From Candidatus Desulfopertinax cowenii (GTDB lineage: Bacteria > Bacillota > Desulfotomaculia > Desulfotomaculales > Desulforudaceae): 64,000 bases of DNA. The stretch is taken from assembly GCA_001899445.1 (NCBI GenBank), contig MPOA01000002.1:1-64000 (forward strand). The letters run 5' to 3'. The notes beneath the pieces are model-generated. The model had not been told where the DNA came from. It did not search any database and was given only the letters and a program-made list of their open reading frames with translations. Below are positions 54,091 to 63,512 of the stretch, piece by piece (positions within the stretch are counted from its first letter, which is position 1; each line of letters begins with the position of its first letter). A program made the translations under genes and the position numbers.

Positions 54091-55380
54091 TTGTATGTTT
54101 TGCTGTTCACCGGGATTCTGCTGTGGGGTGCCGCGGTGCCGGCCGCCGGGGCCGGCGTGGCCATCGACTACGAACCGCTGGGGCAGGAACTGGCCGCCTA
54201 CCTGAACGGCCGGGCCGGTGAATACGGCGTGTATGTAGTGGACCTGCATTCCGGCGTTTCCTTCGGGCACAACGCCCGGGAACCTTTCCACGGGGCCAGC
54301 ACCTTCAAGGTCCCGCTCAACCTCTACCTATTCGCGGAGATCGCTGCTGGGCGGGTGAACCCCAACGCCCGCCTGACCTACCGTGAGGCGCATTACGAAA
54401 GCGGTACCGGATATCTCCACCGGGAGAAATTCGGGACTTCCTTCTGCATCGAGCGCCTGGCCCGGGACTCCATCGTGTACAGCGACAACGTGGCCACCAA
54501 CATGCTCCTGGATTATCTGGGCCGGAGCAAGGTGATCGGGTACATGCGGGGACTCGGGGCCACCGTCGTCAGCGACCGGGCGAACGTGACCTGCGCCAAG
54601 GACCTGGCCCTCTATTTCCATGCCGTCCTGGAATTCGCCCGAGAGTACCCGGAACATGGGGAGCGCCTCCTGGGCTATCTACGGAATACGGTGCACCGGG
54701 ACCGCATTCCCCGGTCCCTGCCTCCGGGAATCCCGGTGGCGCACAAGATCGGCAACTGGCCGGCCCAGGGCAGCTGGCACGATGCCGGGATCGTGGAGCA
54801 CCCTACCCGGCCGTACATTATCGCCATCCTCAGCAAGGGTACGCCGGGCTACGCGTACGCCTGCGCGACGGTGCGAGAGGTTTCGCGCCGGGTGTACGCC
54901 TACCAGGGCGATCCCTTTTACCGCCTGACGGTGCACGTGAACGGGCAGCCGGTCGGGCTGTCCGGGGTACTGAACCGGGACGGGCGGTTCCTGGTGCCGG
55001 TACGCGGTTTTGTGGATCTGCTACCCGGTTATGCCGTGCACTGGGTGCCGGAAGACCGGGCGGTGTTGATCCTCGGTACGGGGCGGGTGGTCCTGCGCCT
55101 GGAAGGTGACGCAGGCTTGACGTTTCACGGGGGACGCACCTACCTGCCGCTGCGCCGGATAGGCGAGGAACTGGGTTACGTGGTCCGCTGGGATCCGGAG
55201 ACGGGTACGGTGCACCTGAGTGTTCCCGGGTTCTTGGAACCGGGAGCGGGCAATGAGGGCGCAGCACCGGGCGAACCAGACTCTGCCGGAGAAGAAGCGG
55301 ACCTCCCCGGAAACGGGGAGAAACAAGACCCAGGGGCGAATTTTGTGGAAGGTCTTGAATTGCAGGGAGTTTCCGGCTAA
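54091..55380 (+). CDS. class A beta-lactamase-fold serine hydrolase with copper-amine-oxidase-type domain
   Basis: A 429-residue exported protein: signal peptide (LLFTGILLWGAAVPAAGAG), serine hydrolase domain (about 35-280), then a PF07833-type copper-amine-oxidase N-terminal domain (about 285-385, FLVPVRGFVDLLPGYAVHWV, TYLPLRRIGEELGYVVRWDP) and an acidic low-complexity tail. Active site: Ser-x-x-Lys in GASTFKVPL, YSDN, and a KIG in place of KTG (AHKIGNW). The Glu166-type deacylation motif of true beta-lactamases is not evident, so a PBP-like or degenerate role is likely. The start is unclear: TTG 54091 lacks a ribosome site, whereas an in-frame ATT at 54079 has GGAGGGG 6-8 bases upstream. 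Confidence 0.82.
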   Translation: MYVLLFTGILLWGAAVPAAGAGVAIDYEPLGQELAAYLNGRAGEYGVYVVDLHSGVSFGHNAREPFHGASTFKVPLNLYLFAEIAAGRVNPNARLTYREAHYESGTGYLHREKFGTSFCIERLARDSIVYSDNVATNMLLDYLGRSKVIGYMRGLGATVVSDRANVTCAKDLALYFHAVLEFAREYPEHGERLLGYLRNTVHRDRIPRSLPPGIPVAHKIGNWPAQGSWHDAGIVEHPTRPYIIAILSKGTPGYAYACATVREVSRRVYAYQGDPFYRLTVHVNGQPVGLSGVLNRDGRFLVPVRGFVDLLPGYAVHWVPEDRAVLILGTGRVVLRLEGDAGLTFHGGRTYLPLRRIGEELGYVVRWDPETGTVHLSVPGFLEPGAGNEGAAPGEPDSAGEEADLPGNGEKQDPGANFVEGLELQGVSG

Positions 55381-55597: not shown

Positions 55598-55669
55598 TAA
55601 AGGGCATGGAAGTGACAAAAGTCGGCACATTCCCATATTGTGGTGGAGAAATACCACAAGGGGATGTCT

Positions 55670-56866
55670 ATGCTCTGTGACGTAACGGTAATCGGGGCCG
55701 GACCGTCCGGTTGCGCTGTGGCCCGGGAGATCGCCCGTCACGGCTACACGGTGACGGTGCTTGAAGAACACGGCCAGATCGGCAAACCGGTGCGCTGCGC
55801 CGGGTTGGTCAGTCCCCGCGCCATAAAGCTCGCGGGAGTTCCCCAGGCGGTGGTCCTGAACCGGATCACGGGGGCGCAGGTGTTTTCGCCACGGGGTGCA
55901 CACCTTCAACTGTCCGGCCCGAAGGAACAGGCGGTGGTGGTCGACCGGAGCGCATTCGACCGTGCCCTGGCGGCCCAGGCGGAAAAGGCCGGGGCGGTGT
56001 TCGTGTATTCCGCCCGGGCGGCCAGATTTGAGCGCCGTGGCGGCGTGCTGGTGATCCGCTATGCTCGCAACGGATCGGAAGGCGAAGTGAAGACCCGGTT
56101 GCTGATCGGTGCCGACGGGGTAAACTCCGCGGTGGCTGCCTGGATCGGCCGGGAGCCGCCGGTGGAACAGGTGCGGATGTTTGCCGCCGAGGCCGCGTTG
56201 CGCACCGCGCCCGAAACCCTGGGTTTGGTTCGCGTTTTCCTGGGGCAGGCGATCGCCCCCGGCTGGTTCGGCTGGATCATCCCGGTTTCGAAAGACCGCG
56301 CCCGGGTTGGGGTGGGGGTGGCGCGCAACGGTGGACTGAATGTCCGGGCTGCTTTCGACCGGCTTTGCAGCGCCTTTCCGGAACACTTTGCCGGGCTGCG
56401 CCTGCTGCAGCCGACCGGCGGGACCGTGCCCCTGGGGCTGGTGAGGCGGAGCTTTGCGGACGGTGTGCTGCTGGTCGGCGACGCGGCCTGCCAGACCAAG
56501 CCCCTCACCGGGGGCGGTATTTACATGGGGCTCCTAGCGGCCGGCATCGCTGCCCGGGTCGCGGTGCGGGCCCTGAAACGTGGTGACCTTTCGGCTTCCT
56601 TCCTCAAGGCCTACCAGGACGAGTGGCACCGAAAAATAGCGGACGAAATCAGGTTCGGGATGGAACAACGCAGTCTTTACAACCGCCTGGACGACGCCCA
56701 GATTGACATGGTGCTGTGTTTCTTCAACCGCCCCTTCTGGCTCGGTTTCGCTCTGCGGTTTGGCGATTTCGATTACCACTCCTGGCTGGGCAGGAAACTT
56801 TGGGTGCTGCCGGCCTGGCTGCAGCAGTGGGCGGGTCATGGGAATCAAGATTGGGCGGAAAATTAG
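55670..56866 (+). CDS. geranylgeranyl-reductase-family FAD oxidoreductase
   Basis: A 398-residue FAD protein. Dinucleotide motif VTVIGAGPSGCAVAREIARH, GKPVRCAGLVSPRAI (the C-x-G block of geranylgeranyl reductases), LLIGADGVNSAVAAWIG, GWIIPVSKDRARVGVGVA, and VLLVGDAACQTKPLTGGGIY. Such enzymes reduce isoprenoid chains or act as electron-transfer flavoproteins. ATG 55670 has AAGGGG 6 bases upstream; ATG 55664 and GTG 55640 are weaker. The stop lies 29 bases inside the next open frame. Confidence 0.85.
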   Translation: MLCDVTVIGAGPSGCAVAREIARHGYTVTVLEEHGQIGKPVRCAGLVSPRAIKLAGVPQAVVLNRITGAQVFSPRGAHLQLSGPKEQAVVVDRSAFDRALAAQAEKAGAVFVYSARAARFERRGGVLVIRYARNGSEGEVKTRLLIGADGVNSAVAAWIGREPPVEQVRMFAAEAALRTAPETLGLVRVFLGQAIAPGWFGWIIPVSKDRARVGVGVARNGGLNVRAAFDRLCSAFPEHFAGLRLLQPTGGTVPLGLVRRSFADGVLLVGDAACQTKPLTGGGIYMGLLAAGIAARVAVRALKRGDLSASFLKAYQDEWHRKIADEIRFGMEQRSLYNRLDDAQIDMVLCFFNRPFWLGFALRFGDFDYHSWLGRKLWVLPAWLQQWAGHGNQDWAEN

Positions 56867-57094
56867 AAGGTTTTTGCGGCCCGGGGTCGAAACTTTGGAA
56901 ATGAATTACCGGCACTGCGCTGCTCGGGTAGAAACCCGGCGGGAGGGGAACCATGTGCTGGAGGTGCGGTTGGAGCTGAACGATCATTACGGCCGCCTCG
57001 TTGTGACGGCAAGCGTACTTTTCTGGAGGACGCTGCCGAGGAGATCCGGGTTCGGGTGCCGGCCGGGGTCAAGGTGCTGGCCTGCTGGTGCTAA
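56838..57094 (+). pseudogene. unknown small gene, frameshifted first copy of a tandem pair
   Basis: The frame from ATG 56838 begins MGIKIGRKIRRFLRPGVETL and reaches VRLELNDHYGRLV. A one-base deficit near 57000-57005, relative to the second copy, then moves it out of frame. With that base restored it would continue DGKRTFLEDAAEEIRVRVPA and end at TAA 57092-57094. Because of the shift, ribosomes would instead read in-frame through into the second copy (ATG 57126 lies in the same frame). No known family. The start overlaps the end of the flavoprotein gene. Confidence 0.6.
56967..57058 (+). repeat. internal direct repeat, copy 1
   Basis: The core 56991-57058 matches 57162-57230 with one missing base and few substitutions; 54 consecutive bases (from GACGGCAAGCG to GGTTCGGGTG) differ at a single position. 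Confidence 0.85.
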
Positions 57095-57125
57095 GCACGC
57101 AAGTGTTAGGCTGGGAGGGAAAAAG

Positions 57126-57446
57126 ATGCTGGTGGCACGGCTGGAGCTGGGTACGCTGCACGGCCGCCTCTGTTTTGACGGCAAGCGTACTTTTCTGGAG
57201 GACGCTGCTGAGGAGATCCGGGTTCGGGTGGAGCCCTATCTGAACCAGGAGCTGGAATACAAGACGGGCACTTGGGTGGACGGAGAAAAGGTGGTGGAAG
57301 TGCACCGGGTGGCGCCTGGAACGCGGGACCACTTCAGCGTGTTGGTCTGGCACTACCTGCCGCATCGGGCGCGGGTGCGGGTGTCGGTGGTGAAGAGCGA
57401 GGGTGACGGAGAGGCAGACGTGCTGTCCGCCCCGGGTGAGAAGTGA
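57126..57446 (+). CDS. unknown protein (106 aa), second copy of a tandem pair
   Basis: ATG 57126 follows GGGAGGGAAAAAG. The product starts MLVARLELGTLHGRLCFDGK and contains RTFLEDAAEEIRVRVEPYLN, then a Gly/Val-rich beta-like half (TGTWVDGEKVVEVHRVAPGT, HYLPHRARVRVSVVKSEGDG). No signal peptide or membrane helix is seen and no family was recognised. The N-terminal third duplicates the neighbour gene. It may also be read as the C-terminal half of one long frame from 56838. Confidence 0.6.
   Translation: MLVARLELGTLHGRLCFDGKRTFLEDAAEEIRVRVEPYLNQELEYKTGTWVDGEKVVEVHRVAPGTRDHFSVLVWHYLPHRARVRVSVVKSEGDGEADVLSAPGEK
57138..57230 (+). repeat. internal direct repeat, copy 2
   Basis: In-frame copy of the repeat at 56967-57058; the spacing of the copies is 171-172 bases. 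Confidence 0.85.
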
Positions 57447-57479: not shown

Positions 57480-58325
57480 TTACTGGCGGCGCCGTTCCGC
57501 TTTCTCCTCATCCTCATAAGGTACCGGGATGAACTGGACCGAGGGGCGCCGCTGGGCCGGCTGGGGATACATTTCCATCAGCCGATAGATGTCCCGGGAC
57601 AGTCCGGTGGTGACCGGCAGGCCCAGGGCCTGGAGTTTTTCCGCGGTGATCGGATAGTCGTGCGTCCACTGGCCGGAGGCGAGGGTATAGGCCACCTCCT
57701 GCGCGGTGGACGCTTCCATTTTCCCGGCCAGCAGGTAGTAGGCGAAGTCCTCCACCTGCCGCAGAGCCTTGGCTGAGATATCGGCCATGAACAGGGTGCG
57801 GTCGGATACCCTTTCCTTACCCTTGAGGCGCACCGCTTCTATGATGGACGCCGCCGGGAGTTGCCCGAGCTGGGGGTCGATCGGGCCGAGCACCGCGTTT
57901 TCATCCATGATGATCTCGTCGGCCGCCAGGGCGATCATGGTACCCCCTGACATGGCGTAGTGCGGGACCATCACCGTGACCTTGGCTGGATGCCTGAGCA
58001 GGGCGCGGGCGATCTGTTCGGATGCCAGTACCAGCCCCCCGGGAGTGTGCACCACCAGGTCAATCGGCAGGTTGGGGGGTGTCAGTCTGATCGCCCGCAG
58101 GATCTGCTCGGAGTCCTCGATATTGATAAACCGGGTCAGCGGAATCCCGAAGAGGCTGATCAGTTCCTGGCGATGGATCAGCGTAATCAGCCGGGAACCA
58201 CGCTTTTTCTCGATTTTCCGGATCAGCCTGATCCGGGCCTTGTGCACCTGGCGCTGCCGGACCATCGGCAACAGCGCGGCTAGGATCAGGACGATCCAAA
58301 AGATTTCAAAAGGAGTGATGCCCAC
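57480..58325 (-). CDS. membrane-anchored SDH/SppA-like serine protease
   Basis: A ClpP/crotonase-fold protease of the serine-dehydrogenase-proteinase (SDH) family, 281 residues. An N-terminal helix (FEIFWIVLILAALLPMV) anchors it. The body has ITLIHRQELISLFGIPLTRF, LPIDLVVHTPGGLVLASEQI, and the nucleophile in VPHYAMSGGTMIALAADEII. GTG 58325 follows GAGGGGG by 5 bases and matches the family length. It is convergent with the duplicated unknown genes and divergent from the LysE-like exporter. A role in membrane protein turnover is the usual inference. Confidence 0.87.
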   Translation of the reverse strand: MGITPFEIFWIVLILAALLPMVRQRQVHKARIRLIRKIEKKRGSRLITLIHRQELISLFGIPLTRFINIEDSEQILRAIRLTPPNLPIDLVVHTPGGLVLASEQIARALLRHPAKVTVMVPHYAMSGGTMIALAADEIIMDENAVLGPIDPQLGQLPAASIIEAVRLKGKERVSDRTLFMADISAKALRQVEDFAYYLLAGKMEASTAQEVAYTLASGQWTHDYPITAEKLQALGLPVTTGLSRDIYRLMEMYPQPAQRRPSVQFIPVPYEDEEKAERRRQ

Positions 58326-58549
58326 GGTGGCCCCCTCGTTGTTGCTTCCCGGGAAACCGTGAAACTTTGCGCCAGCATCGCCGGGATGTGGTAAGATGTT
58401 AAACGTCAATTATATATTCTGCACGCGGAGGTCGGTTTTTACGCCGGATCGATCCAATCTCCACCGGGTTGCATGCGCCGCAGTCCGGGCGTCGCCGGCC
58501 GATTGTCTGGATCGTGGTTCGGACGACCTCCCGGAAGGAGTTGCCGGAC

Positions 58550-59227
58550 TTGTCCATCGAAATGATTTTTGTCACTTCCCTGATTGTGGGCTTGACCGGG
58601 GCGATGATGCCCGGGCCCCTCCTCACCGTGACGATCGCCGAAACCGCCCGGTGCGGTTTCCGGGCCGGCCCCCTGCTGATCCTGGGGCATGGGATACTGG
58701 AGCTGGTTTTGATTGTCGCCCTGACCGCCGGTTTGGCGACCATCCTGATCCGCGCCGAGGTGACCGCCGTGATCGCCACGGTCGGCGGCGCCTTTTTGCT
58801 GTGGATGGGCGGCACCATTGCCCGGGATGCGCTGCTGGGCCGGGTGAAACCGGCGGTGGTTCGGGAAACAGACCCCGCGACGGGCCGGCCGGTTGCCGGG
58901 CCCGGCGGCGCGCCGCGGCTGATCGGGCTGGGGATTGCCACCAGCCTGGCTAATCCGTACTTCATCCTGTGGTGGGCGACCATCGGTCTGGGCTACATAA
59001 CGCTATCCCTGGAGCGGGGCGTGGCGGGGTGGGCCGCCTTCTTCAGCGGGCACATCCTGGCCGACCTGGGCTGGTACAGCCTGGTGGCCGGGGCGGTGGC
59101 CGGCAGCGGGCGGTTTCTCACCCCCGGGATCTACCGGGGCATCCTGGCGGTATGCGGCGCGTTTCTGGTAGTGCTGGGCGGGTACTTCATTTACAGCGGC
59201 CTGGTAAAAAATTTATGGTTGGGATAG
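58550..59227 (+). CDS. LysE-family amino-acid exporter
   Basis: A roughly 225-residue, six-helix exporter. Seen: MIFVTSLIVGLTGAMMPGPL near the start (family GxxxGAxxPGPL), GFRAGPLLILGHGILELVLI, a central hydrophilic loop, and ATSLANPYFILWWATIGLGY. TTG 58550 has AAGGAG 9 bases upstream. It ends 53 bases before the Memo-AMMECR1 gene and may be co-transcribed with it. Confidence 0.85.
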   Translation: MSIEMIFVTSLIVGLTGAMMPGPLLTVTIAETARCGFRAGPLLILGHGILELVLIVALTAGLATILIRAEVTAVIATVGGAFLLWMGGTIARDALLGRVKPAVVRETDPATGRPVAGPGGAPRLIGLGIATSLANPYFILWWATIGLGYITLSLERGVAGWAAFFSGHILADLGWYSLVAGAVAGSGRFLTPGIYRGILAVCGAFLVVLGGYFIYSGLVKNLWLG

Positions 59228-59280: not shown

Positions 59281-60699
59281 ATGGGGGTTGTGCTGTGCGG
59301 TATCGCACCCCACCCGCCGGTGATGGTGCCCGAAGTGGGCGGGAGGCGGGCCGAAGAGACCGCCGCGTCCCGGGACGCCCTACTGGAACTGGGACGGCGG
59401 ATACTAGCCGGCGGCGCCGGGGCCCTGGTGATGATTACGCCCCACGGCCCGGTCTTCCGCGACGCGGTCGGCATTGTCACGGTTCCCCGGCTGCGGGGGG
59501 ATCTGGGGCACTTTGGTGCCCCGGAGGTGGCCTTCGACCTGCCCAACGACCGGGAGCTGGCCGCTGAGATCCGGGCCCGGTGCGAACGTCACGGCCTACC
59601 CGTGGCGGCGGTGGGCCGGGAGACGGCCCGGTTTTACCGGCGACCGGCCCCCTCCGAACTGGACCACGGAGTGACCGCCCCGCTGTACTGGCTGCGGCAG
59701 GCCGGGGTGGAACTCCCGCTGGTGGTGGCGAGCGTGGGTTTCCTGCCCCGCGAAAAACTGTACCTTTTCGGCCGGGCCGTGCGCGAAGCGGCCGCGGCCC
59801 TGGATAAAAAGGTGGCCCTGGTAGCCAGCGGCGACCTGTCCCACCGGCTGACCCCCGACGCGCCCGGGGGCTACAGTCCCTGCGGCCAGGAATTCGACGC
59901 CCTGGTGGTCGATCTGCTCCGGCGGGGCGACGTGCGGAGCCTAGTCGAAATCGACGAATATCTAGCCGAGGAAGCCGGCGAATGCGGCCTGCGGCCGATC
60001 ATCATGCTGCTCGGCGCCCTGGACGGCGATGATTTCAAACCGGAAGTGCTGTCTTACGAGGCACCTTTCGGGGTGGGCTACATGGTAGCCGCTTTCACGC
60101 CCGTGGAAGCCCGGCCCGACAACCGCAGCGATACGGAGGAAGCACCGACGGAACGTGAACCGGACCCGGCCGCCGGGCGGGCCGGAGAGAGTTACCTGGT
60201 GCGGCTGGCCCGAGAGCGGGTCGAGAGCTTATACCGTGGTGAGGGCGAGCGCAGGCGCCCCGGGGCGGACGAAGTGCCGCCCGAGTTCCAGCGGCCCGGC
60301 GGAGTGTTCGTTTCCATCAAGAAGCACGGCCGGCTGCGCGGCTGCATCGGCACCATTGAACCAACCCACGTGTCCGTTTACGAAGAGGTGCTGCAGAACG
60401 CCGTGGCGGCCGCCCGGCACGACCCGCGCTTCCCGCCGGTGCGCCGCGACGAACTGGACGAGCTGGAGTATTCGGTGGACGTGCTCTCGCCGCTTGAACC
60501 GGTGACGGACCTGTCCACCCTCGACCCGAAGAAGTACGGGGTTCTCGTCACCCACGGCGGCCGCTCCGGGGTGTTACTGCCCGACCTGGAGGGGATTGAT
60601 ACCGTTGGGAAACAGCTGGCCATTTGCCGGGAAAAGGCGGGCCTTCCTCCGGATGTTCCGGTCACCGTCTACCGTTTCACCGTTACCCGTTACACTTGA
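59281..60699 (+). CDS. AmmeMemoRadiSam system: Memo-like dioxygenase-fold fused to AMMECR1
   Basis: A 472-residue fusion. Residues 1-275 are a Memo/class III extradiol-dioxygenase-like domain: [74 protein letters not shown] with putative metal ligands. After an acidic linker ([20 protein letters not shown]) comes an AMMECR1 domain (about 295-470): [40 protein letters not shown] and [24 protein letters not shown] precedes the ATG. The radical SAM partner follows 26 bases later. The chemistry of this three-domain system is not established. Confidence 0.92.
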
Positions 60700-60725
60700 G
60701 GTATGCGGAAAGAAGGTTTGCACTG

Positions 60726-61739
60726 TTGCGCCGGGCCGAGTTTTTCGTCCGCGATTCCGAGAAAAGGCATCTTACCTGTCACCTCTGTCCCAACCGCTGT
60801 GTGATCAGGGACAACAAGACCGGGGTGTGCCGGGTACGCAAGAACATAGACGGTGTGCTATACGCCCTCAACTACGGGGAAGTCTCCTCCTATGGTATGG
60901 ACCCGATCGAGAAAAAACCTCTGTATCATTTTTACCCCGGACACCAGATCTTTTCCCTGGGCACGGTGGGCTGCAACCTGCACTGCCGCTTTTGCCAGAA
61001 CTGGGAGATTGCCCACGGGGAACCGCCCACGGTGCGCGTCACTCCCGAAGAGATCGTGCACCTGGCCCGGCAGCAGCGGCAGTGCATCGGCATTGCCTAC
61101 ACCTATTCCGAACCCCTGGTCTGGTACGAGTTCGTGTCCGAAACGGCCGTGCTGGCCCACGAAGCCGGACTGAAAAACGTGCTGGTGACCAACGGGTTCA
61201 TCGAGCAGGAACCGCTGGAAAAACTGCTTCCGCACGTAGACGCCATGAACATTGACGTGAAGGCCTTCACCAACGACTATTACCGCCGGCTCTGCGCCGG
61301 ACGGCTGGACCCGGTGCGGCGCACGGTGGAAATCGCGGTCCGACACTGCCTGGTGGAGCTGACCACCCTCCTGGTCACCGGCGAGAATGATAGCCCCGGA
61401 GAAATTCGGGAACTGGTGGACTGGATCGCCCGGGTGGACCGGGAAATCCCGCTGCACCTGTCCCGGTATTTTCCCCACTACCGTTTCGACGCGCCACCGA
61501 CGCCGCTTGCGACCATGCGCTGCGCCCGGGAAATCGCCCGGGAGAAGCTGCCCTACGTGTACCTGGGCAACGTGGGGGACGTGGAAAACGGTTATACTTA
61601 CTGTCCGCAGTGCCGGAAGAAGGTGATCGAGCGCTCAGGTTACATCATCCGGGCGGTGCACCTGCGGGAGGACAACCGTTGCCGCCACTGCGGATACGCC
61701 CTGAACATCGTGGGGGAGGCCCGGGCGACTGCCTCCTAG
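60726..61739 (+). CDS. amrS: AmmeMemoRadiSam system radical SAM enzyme
   Basis: A 337-residue radical SAM enzyme related to pyruvate-formate-lyase activating enzymes. An N-terminal cysteine cluster (CHLCPNRC) is followed by CxxxCxxC in LGTVGCNLHCRFCQNW binding the [4Fe-4S]/SAM cluster, ALNYGEVSSYGMDPIEKKPL, KNVLVTNGFIEQEPLEKLLP and PLHLSRYFPHYRF. Its C-terminus has two more CxxC pairs (CPQC and CRHC). TTG 60726 has AAGG upstream. With the fused Memo-AMMECR1 gene it makes a complete AmmeMemoRadiSam pair. A terminator follows about 50 bases after the stop. Confidence 0.93.
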   Translation: MRRAEFFVRDSEKRHLTCHLCPNRCVIRDNKTGVCRVRKNIDGVLYALNYGEVSSYGMDPIEKKPLYHFYPGHQIFSLGTVGCNLHCRFCQNWEIAHGEPPTVRVTPEEIVHLARQQRQCIGIAYTYSEPLVWYEFVSETAVLAHEAGLKNVLVTNGFIEQEPLEKLLPHVDAMNIDVKAFTNDYYRRLCAGRLDPVRRTVEIAVRHCLVELTTLLVTGENDSPGEIRELVDWIARVDREIPLHLSRYFPHYRFDAPPTPLATMRCAREIAREKLPYVYLGNVGDVENGYTYCPQCRKKVIERSGYIIRAVHLREDNRCRHCGYALNIVGEARATAS

Positions 61740-62115: not shown

Positions 62116-62153
62116 TCCTTCGTTGGTGCCGCCCGTTAGGGCGGCATGGGGGG
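62116..62153. repeat. dispersed hairpin repeat, copy 2
   Basis: TCCTTCGTTGGT then GCCGCCCGTTAGGGCGGC and ATGGGGGG, nearly matching 5997-6030. It abuts the left end of the inverted-repeat element at 62157. Confidence 0.6.
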
Positions 62154-62156
62154 TCT

Positions 62157-62385
62157 GCTGAAAAACTCAGTCTGCCGTGCTGAGGATTTTATCGGAGGTC
62201 ACATTGGGAGCTTATTCAAGAAACGAGCGAAGCCGAGGGATAACGGCGACCGACTGTCTGAGGCCGCGAAGCGGGCGAGCCTCTAACGCCGCCCGAGGCG
62301 AGCGAGTTCATTCCTTAGCGCGGACTCGAGTAGCCGGAGATAATGCCTCAGCACGGCAGACGAGGTGTAGATAGTTTTTTTCAGC
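62157..62385. repeat. 229-bp element bounded by inverted repeats (MITE-like or structured RNA)
   Basis: GTCTGCCGTGCTGAGG at 62170-62185 and its exact complement at 62346-62361 form 16-bp arms. The similarity extends outwards (GCTGAAAAACT at 62157 versus AGTTTTTTTCAGC ending 62385) and inwards (ATTTTATC versus GATAATGC). The interior has local stems (GAGGCCGC...GCCTC near 62250-62283) and repeats of GCGAGC/GCGAAGC-type words. No coding frame. It sits 29 bases before the argC promoter. Confidence 0.65.
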
Positions 62386-62413
62386 AAAATTTGAGTAAAA
62401 AATAGGGCCGGGG

Positions 62414-62442: not shown

Positions 62443-62471
62443 TATGAGCATTACTTTTGGGGGTGGAGCAG

Positions 62472-63512
62472 TTGATCAAGGTTGGGATTATCGGGTCCAC
62501 CGGCTACACAGGCGCCGAACTGGTGCGCCTCCTTTCCCGCCACCCGCACGCGGAAATCGTTGGCCTGACCTCCCGTACTTACAGCGGCGAGCCTTACTGG
62601 CGGGTTTACCCGCATCTCAAGGGGTATACCGACCTGCAGTGCGAGGAGCTGGACCTGCCGCGCTTGGTCGACCGGGCGGACGTAATCTTCACCGCCTTGC
62701 CGCACGGGCATTCCGTGGAGGTGGCGCGGGAGGTGCTTTCCCGGGGTAAGAAACTGATCGACCTGGGCGCCGACTTCCGGTTCAGCGCGCGGGAGGTGTA
62801 CGAGTCCTGGTACCGAGTGCCCCATACCGCTCCGGAACTCCTGGAACGGGCGGTATACGGCCTGTCCGAGATCAACCGGGACGCCATCCGGGGCGCCGAT
62901 CTGGTGGCCAACCCGGGCTGCTATCCCACGGCCTCCGTCCTAGGCCTGGCACCCTTACTGGCCAAGGGCCTCATTGACACCCGGGAGATCGTGATCGATG
63001 CCAAATCTGGTGTTTCGGGTGCCGGCCGGGGCTTCTCCCAGAAAACCCACTTTTCGGAAACGAACGAAAACTTCCAGGCCTACGGCGTGGCTGGGCACCG
63101 GCACACCCCGGAGATCGAGGAACAGCTGGGCCGCCTGGCGGGCCGGGAAATCACCGTTTCCTTTACCCCCCACCTGGTGCCCATGGTACGGGGTATCCTG
63201 GCTACCATTTACACCAGGCCCACGGTCCTGCCGGAGGCGGAGGAGCTTTACGCGCTTTACATGGACTTTTACCGGGAAGAATCGTTTGTGCGGTTGCTAC
63301 CGCCCGGGGTGCTGCCCCAGACCAAGGCGGTGGCCGGCACCAACCACTGCGACCTCGCCCTGGTTCCCGATCCGCGCACCGGCCGGATTGTGATCCTGGC
63401 CGCTATCGACAACCTGGTCAAGGGCGCTTCCGGCCAGGCGGTGCAGAACATGAACCTCATCTTTGACCTTGACGAAACCACGGGGCTGGTTTTCCCCGGG
63501 TTGTATCCCTAG
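62472..63512 (+). CDS. argC: N-acetyl-gamma-glutamyl-phosphate reductase
   Basis: NADPH-dependent third step of arginine synthesis; 346 residues. Seen: IKVGIIGSTGYTGAELVRLL, FTALPHGHSVEVAREV, LIDLGADFRF, catalytic Cys in VANPGCYPTASVLGL, KSGVSGAGRG, HRHTPEIEEQLGRLAG and the C-terminal NLVKGASGQAVQNMNL. TTG 62472 has GGAG upstream and gives the usual N-terminus. argJ follows 16 bases later. Confidence 0.95.
   Translation: MIKVGIIGSTGYTGAELVRLLSRHPHAEIVGLTSRTYSGEPYWRVYPHLKGYTDLQCEELDLPRLVDRADVIFTALPHGHSVEVAREVLSRGKKLIDLGADFRFSAREVYESWYRVPHTAPELLERAVYGLSEINRDAIRGADLVANPGCYPTASVLGLAPLLAKGLIDTREIVIDAKSGVSGAGRGFSQKTHFSETNENFQAYGVAGHRHTPEIEEQLGRLAGREITVSFTPHLVPMVRGILATIYTRPTVLPEAEELYALYMDFYREESFVRLLPPGVLPQTKAVAGTNHCDLALVPDPRTGRIVILAAIDNLVKGASGQAVQNMNLIFDLDETTGLVFPGLYP

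Follow-up and report, generated by a model that had tools for sequence, protein, structure and literature searches.

A LigB-type AmmeMemoRadiSam gene pair in Candidatus Desulfopertinax cowenii: family assignment, genome context and a putative metal site

The conservation of AMMECR1 and MEMO1 extends from microbes to humans, and in prokaryotes they belong with a radical SAM enzyme to the AmmeMemoRadiSam system, which is described by three protein models, i.e. TIGR04335 (protein A, AMMECR1), TIGR04336 (protein B, Memo-like) and TIGR04337 (the radical SAM enzyme). AMMECR1 occurs in 50.66% of 1,293 anaerobic bacteria versus 3.38% of 4,227 aerobic ones, and it is the highest-weighted anaerobe marker among 20 selected Pfams (PMC13386939). 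In humans, a mutation in the LRGCIG motif of AMMECR1 gives rise to a syndrome (PMC5502304). Our literature search recovered no paper giving a reaction, substrate, product or phenotype for the system. Here we describe the locus in a stretch of 64,000 nucleotides from Candidatus Desulfopertinax cowenii (the window; the genome that contains it measures 1.78 Mb). By mapping the family matches, predicted folds, residue conservation and genome context of the two genes, we find that both genes are intact and that they represent, in a layout common in the phylum, an unexceptional example of an enzyme pair already known from anaerobes.

The fusion protein and its radical SAM partner

The first gene (59281..60699, plus strand) encodes a protein of 472 residues that consists of a LigB-type domain (residues 9-269) and an AMMECR1 domain (residues 307-470), and a ribosome site, GAGGAGG, lies just 5' of its start. 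The gene for the radical SAM enzyme (60726..61739, plus strand, 337 residues) begins 26 nt downstream, most likely at the TTG codon at 60726, because homologues align from residue 1; the longer frame that is listed, with its start at 60624, would begin inside the fusion gene. Both frames are open and intact where the original prediction had placed them, and its reading of the two genes as an AmmeMemoRadiSam pair is borne out by scores of 136.1 bits for the fusion protein against TIGR04335 (cut-off 99) and 330.6 bits for its partner against TIGR04337 (cut-off 220). We therefore identify them, with near certainty, as a LigB-type AmmeMemoRadiSam gene pair.

The first domain had been called Memo. 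It does share a single chain with AMMECR1 (Pfam E-value of the latter 7.4e-45) and it does stand in the Memo slot, so that the label is fair by position, yet its family match is LigB (PF02900; E 3.4e-45, 154.7 bits, cut-off 26.3) rather than Memo (PF01875; cut-off 27 bits), for which the Pfam search gave no match in either the fusion protein or the genome containing the window. TIGR04336 scores 22.7 bits against the fusion of the window (cut-off 26) and 28.8-46.4 bits against three LigB-type relatives (46.4 and 36.4 for two that are fused, the third being a standalone protein), PF01875 reaches 42.5 bits against a relative of the same fusion, and a profile comparison between the LigB domain of the window and true Memo returned a probability of 95%. 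The domain is a member of the dioxygenase-Memo superfamily that lies nearer to the dioxygenase side. The predicted structure of the fusion protein (mean pLDDT 89.9; pTM 0.66, the mutual orientation of the two domains being uncertain) has TK2203 as the nearest solved fold to its LigB domain (Z 33.3, rmsd 3.2 over 260), followed by ring-cleaving dioxygenases at Z 25-29 (LigB-type enzymes overall at Z 25-33), and human MEMO1 is found at Z 19.4 (rmsd 3.1 over 230).

Two further features of the pair had been pointed out. The linker between the domains is indeed acidic in the window (9 D/E and 4 K/R in 33 residues), but it is neutral or basic in most related fusions, i.e. its acidity is not conserved and does not distinguish this protein. 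Likewise, the extra cysteine pairs of the radical SAM enzyme are present but shared: C18, C21, C25 and C35 are, together with C83, C87 and C90 of the intact cluster motif C83-x3-C87-x2-C90 (GCNLHCRFC), invariant in 26/26 homologues from Firmicutes and Chloroflexota, and the C-terminal CxxC...CxxC ribbon is common to most of these 26, missing from the short clostridial forms. The AMMECR1 motif R353-G354-C355-I356-G357 is invariant in 80 distinct fusions.

The nearest fold to the predicted structure of the radical SAM enzyme (pLDDT 92.6) is that of the pyruvate formate-lyase activating enzyme (Z 24.5, rmsd 2.6 over 224 residues), and the list of similar folds also holds nucleotide-acting radical SAM enzymes, QueE and TYW1 among them. 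Against the equivalog models of the activases the protein scores below the cut-offs (PFLA, 59 bits, cut-off 231.75; YjjW, 59.1 bits, cut-off 250.2). A homologue encoded on the minus strand in an acidobacterium (locus L152; the same organism as locus L125) carries an intein-like LAGLIDADG insert of about 380 residues, positioned exactly at the third cysteine of the CxxxCxxC motif (GCDLHCGY, followed by the insert C...SN and then by CQNW).

Distribution and genome context

A long match to the radical SAM enzyme was recovered in 58 of the 60 genomes of the order, that of the window included; the two exceptions are G010, which has a fragment, and G021, a genome that is 57% complete. The fusion gene and the radical SAM gene are adjacent and on the same strand in all 57 loci from relatives within the order, with a gap of 18-673 nt. 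Across 149 genomes of the phylum, the radical SAM enzyme and AMMECR1 are both present in 113 and both absent from 34, and each occurs alone only once (AMMECR1 in G082, and a radical SAM fragment in G093). The open frames that hold the AMMECR1 matches of the phylum are mostly some 450-530 residues long, about a dozen being short; fusion of AMMECR1 is common there, and the slot beside it is filled by LigB, mostly in fused form. That this slot is the one of Memo follows from three loci of Chloroflexota (L128, L130 and L134), in which a true Memo gene (PF01875; 322.9 bits against TIGR04336 for the one in L128) lies between the genes for the radical SAM enzyme and AMMECR1. Standalone PF01875 genes of the phylum were considered as the missing Memo and rejected, those read (L138, L140, L141 and L142) lacking the CG motif. 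Most of their products begin with a lipoprotein-like or membrane segment, and they seem to form a different branch; the ones with lipoprotein-like signal sequences (L138, L141 and L142), which are present in several genomes of the phylum, probably represent an extracytoplasmic branch of Memo.

Directly upstream of the pair lies a gene for a LysE-family exporter (58550..59227, plus strand; PF01810, E 6e-32), the probable first gene of the run. Its listed frame begins at 58469, and we place the start at TTG 58550, probably, on account of the upstream GGAAGGAG and of homology that begins around residue 28 of the listed frame. The original prediction had named this exporter as a possible functional partner, and a comparison of neighbourhoods upholds the link within one order: in 35/57 loci LysE immediately precedes the pair in the same orientation, and it is retained in 17 of the 22 loci that have lost both the upstream ribosomal/amidase genes and the downstream arg genes, against 8 of the 18 in which both flanks are kept, which implies that the linkage of LysE to the pair is kept better than that of the remaining region. 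The arginine cluster was rejected as the cause of this adjacency, LysE being adjacent in 14/30 loci with arg genes downstream and in 21/27 without. Outside the order the link disappears, as none of 62 sampled LysE-owning genomes from other orders of the phylum has LysE near the pair and five of them (G066, G104, G163, G180 and G181) lack the radical SAM enzyme altogether. Taken together, this is suggestive of an association that is a feature of one order and not a general one. In G031 a LysE remnant of 47 residues (contig C44, 63853-63993), apparently a decayed copy, lies beside the fusion and radical SAM genes.

The second proposed partner, an SDH-type ClpP-like serine protease encoded divergently (57480..58409, minus strand; NF047768 at 419 bits, PF01972), did not survive the same comparison and is judged to lie outside the system. 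Among the 57 loci of the order it is found beside the pair in 11 relatives belonging to two families only, it is owned by 28 of the 60 genomes (i.e. absent from about half), and in about 17 it lies away from the pair; in G008 the protease and LysE stand together on contig 47, and the pair is on contig 34. Adjoining the protease gene is a small gene (57126-57446; 106 residues, no Pfam match) that is found again beside the protease in relatives, with an apparent partial, frame-disrupted copy directly upstream (56890-57095).

Downstream, argC (62457..63512, plus strand; TIGR01850 at 455 bits) opens onto an arginine cluster that is syntenic (arg genes follow the pair in 30/57 relatives of the order) and is likewise judged outside the system. 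Between the radical SAM gene and argC, a repeat that is dispersed in the genome and measures about 230-260 bp (62140-62400) contains a perfect 16-nt inverted repeat (arms 62170-62185 and 62346-62361, 160 nt between them) and has, itself included, 10 near-full copies and 2 fragments, which are 78-94% identical to the copy in the window. Upstream, many relatives have genes for a FliK-like protein and an FlhB tail, i.e. divergent neighbours of flagellar type. In the window, the gene at 54091-55380 joins a class A beta-lactamase-like domain and a copper amine oxidase N-terminal-like domain in one protein; a similar protein (41%) is encoded near the pair in Acetivibrio (L117).

A putative metal site and the chemistry it may serve

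The metal ligands and the radical SAM cluster, by which the original prediction had proposed to judge the pair, look intact: in the alignment H11, H55, H188 and C235 of the LigB domain are constant in 80/80 distinct fusions, as are C83, C87 and C90 of the partner in its own 26 homologues. E234 is Glu in 77/80 fusions (Gln in two, Val in one). It aligns with a Glu of 2-amino-5-chlorophenol dioxygenase (3vsg_B) and of HPCD (8iq8) that is the third metal ligand in these enzymes, and in the same alignments H11, H55, E234 and H188 match the two-His-one-Glu ligands and the catalytic His of a class III extradiol dioxygenase. C235, in turn, aligns with the only cysteine of Memo, which is C244 in the human protein and is named as a metal site in the title of structure 7m8h (see also PMC7694686). 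The site thus looks intact, and metal-binding residues of the dioxygenase and Memo families appear to adjoin each other in this fusion, as E234-C235. The Glu-Cys pair may already be familiar to specialists, and we do not claim priority for it.

Our preferred explanation, to which we give about even odds, is an anaerobic radical SAM modification whose substrate is bound or completed by the fusion protein. The two genes would be expressed together, within the order often behind a LysE exporter that may export a product. The radical SAM protein would bind a [4Fe-4S] cluster at C83/C87/C90 and cleave S-adenosylmethionine to a 5'-deoxyadenosyl radical that abstracts hydrogen from the substrate, assisted by the four invariant N-terminal cysteines, as a zinc knuckle or a second cluster. 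The AMMECR1 domain would bind or finish the substrate via its RGCIG pocket, and the LigB domain would hold a metal by H11, H55 and E234 and/or C235, with H188 in an acid-base role. Because the hosts are anaerobes, this site probably works without O2, as a metal lyase, a hydrolase or a binding site; O2-dependent ring cleavage is unlikely in an anaerobic lineage. A more specific version, in which the LigB domain is a living intermediate between ring-cleaving dioxygenases and Memo, its O2-independent metal reaction is coupled to the radical SAM chemistry and LysE exports the product in this order, is tentative and in our view rather doubtful. The replacement of E234 by Q or V in three fusions weighs against the general mechanism, as does the fact that eukaryotic AMMECR1 and MEMO1 are not known to have a radical SAM partner, so that radical chemistry is perhaps not the common core.

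The eukaryotic proteins, which persist with no such enzyme known beside them, also weigh against the possibility that the target of the radical SAM enzyme is the fusion protein, in which a residue in the RGCIG loop or at the Glu-Cys metal site would be matured to a radical or an oxidised state, the fusion then being the working enzyme. The idea draws on the resemblance to the pyruvate formate-lyase activating enzyme, which acts on the peptide of a partner, on the tight pairing of the two genes and on the invariant Gly-Cys loop and the invariant Cys beside the metal Glu; since, however, Pfam found no glycyl-radical domain in the fusion protein and the nucleotide-acting QueE and TYW1 share the fold list, we regard it as unlikely. 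The resemblance to TYW1 and QueE leads to another reading, in which a nucleotide or tRNA base is modified and AMMECR1 serves to bind the nucleic acid or the nucleotide. For the contexts of Memo, Burroughs et al. (2019, J Biol Chem) reportedly proposed modification of both nucleotide bases and isoprenoids, and another paper cites that work for Memo-AMMECR1-radical SAM systems. The genome context argues otherwise, as truA of the ribosomal block is the only gene for tRNA or nucleotide modification that is found repeatedly next to the pair within the order, and we consider this reading improbable as well.

An isoprenoid or lipid modification would be consistent with that reported isoprenoid link and with the geranylgeranyl-reductase-like gene at 55640-56866 (231 bits for TIGR02032), but the gene is near the pair in no other fetched locus of the order and was rejected as a partner, so that we give this possibility very little credence. 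The model of the original prediction, i.e. that LysE exports the product or the SDH protease processes a peptide, fares little better: the adjacency of LysE, also where both flanks are rearranged, speaks for it, whereas its absence from the pair in other orders, the protease being elsewhere or missing in most genomes, and the joint location of both genes on a contig without the pair in G008 make it quite improbable.

With LigB and AMMECR1 in a single chain and one radical SAM enzyme as its partner, the pair represents a compact version of the system for purification. The apparent adjoining of dioxygenase and Memo residues makes the role of the system accessible to testing, as the Glu-Cys pair offers two point mutants by which to tell which kind of metal site it uses.

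Comparison with known systems

The locus is closest to the AmmeMemoRadiSam system, with which it shares protein A and the radical SAM enzyme, their adjacency and common direction, and an anaerobic lineage; it differs in the B slot, where a LigB-type domain forms one chain with protein A. The pyruvate formate-lyase activating enzyme has a radical SAM barrel like that of the partner protein but matches residues 49-280 only, leaving the N-terminal four-cysteine segment and the C-terminal ribbon outside, and no glycyl radical enzyme partner was seen at the locus in the window. The class III extradiol dioxygenases (2-aminophenol 1,6-dioxygenase, HPCD, LigB and DOPA dioxygenase) resemble the LigB domain in fold, and their H, H and E metal residues and catalytic His have apparent counterparts in it, whereas the domain of the window is fused to AMMECR1, paired with a radical SAM enzyme, found in anaerobes and equipped with an extra invariant Cys beside the Glu. 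TK2203 of Thermococcus kodakarensis (5HEE), the best structural match at 25% identity, is unfused and has no Glu-Cys pair where the alignment would place it. Human MEMO1 (PF01875), finally, has the CG motif and His residues in common with the domain, besides the fold, but no Glu precedes its metal Cys and its sequence family is not matched by the protein of the window.
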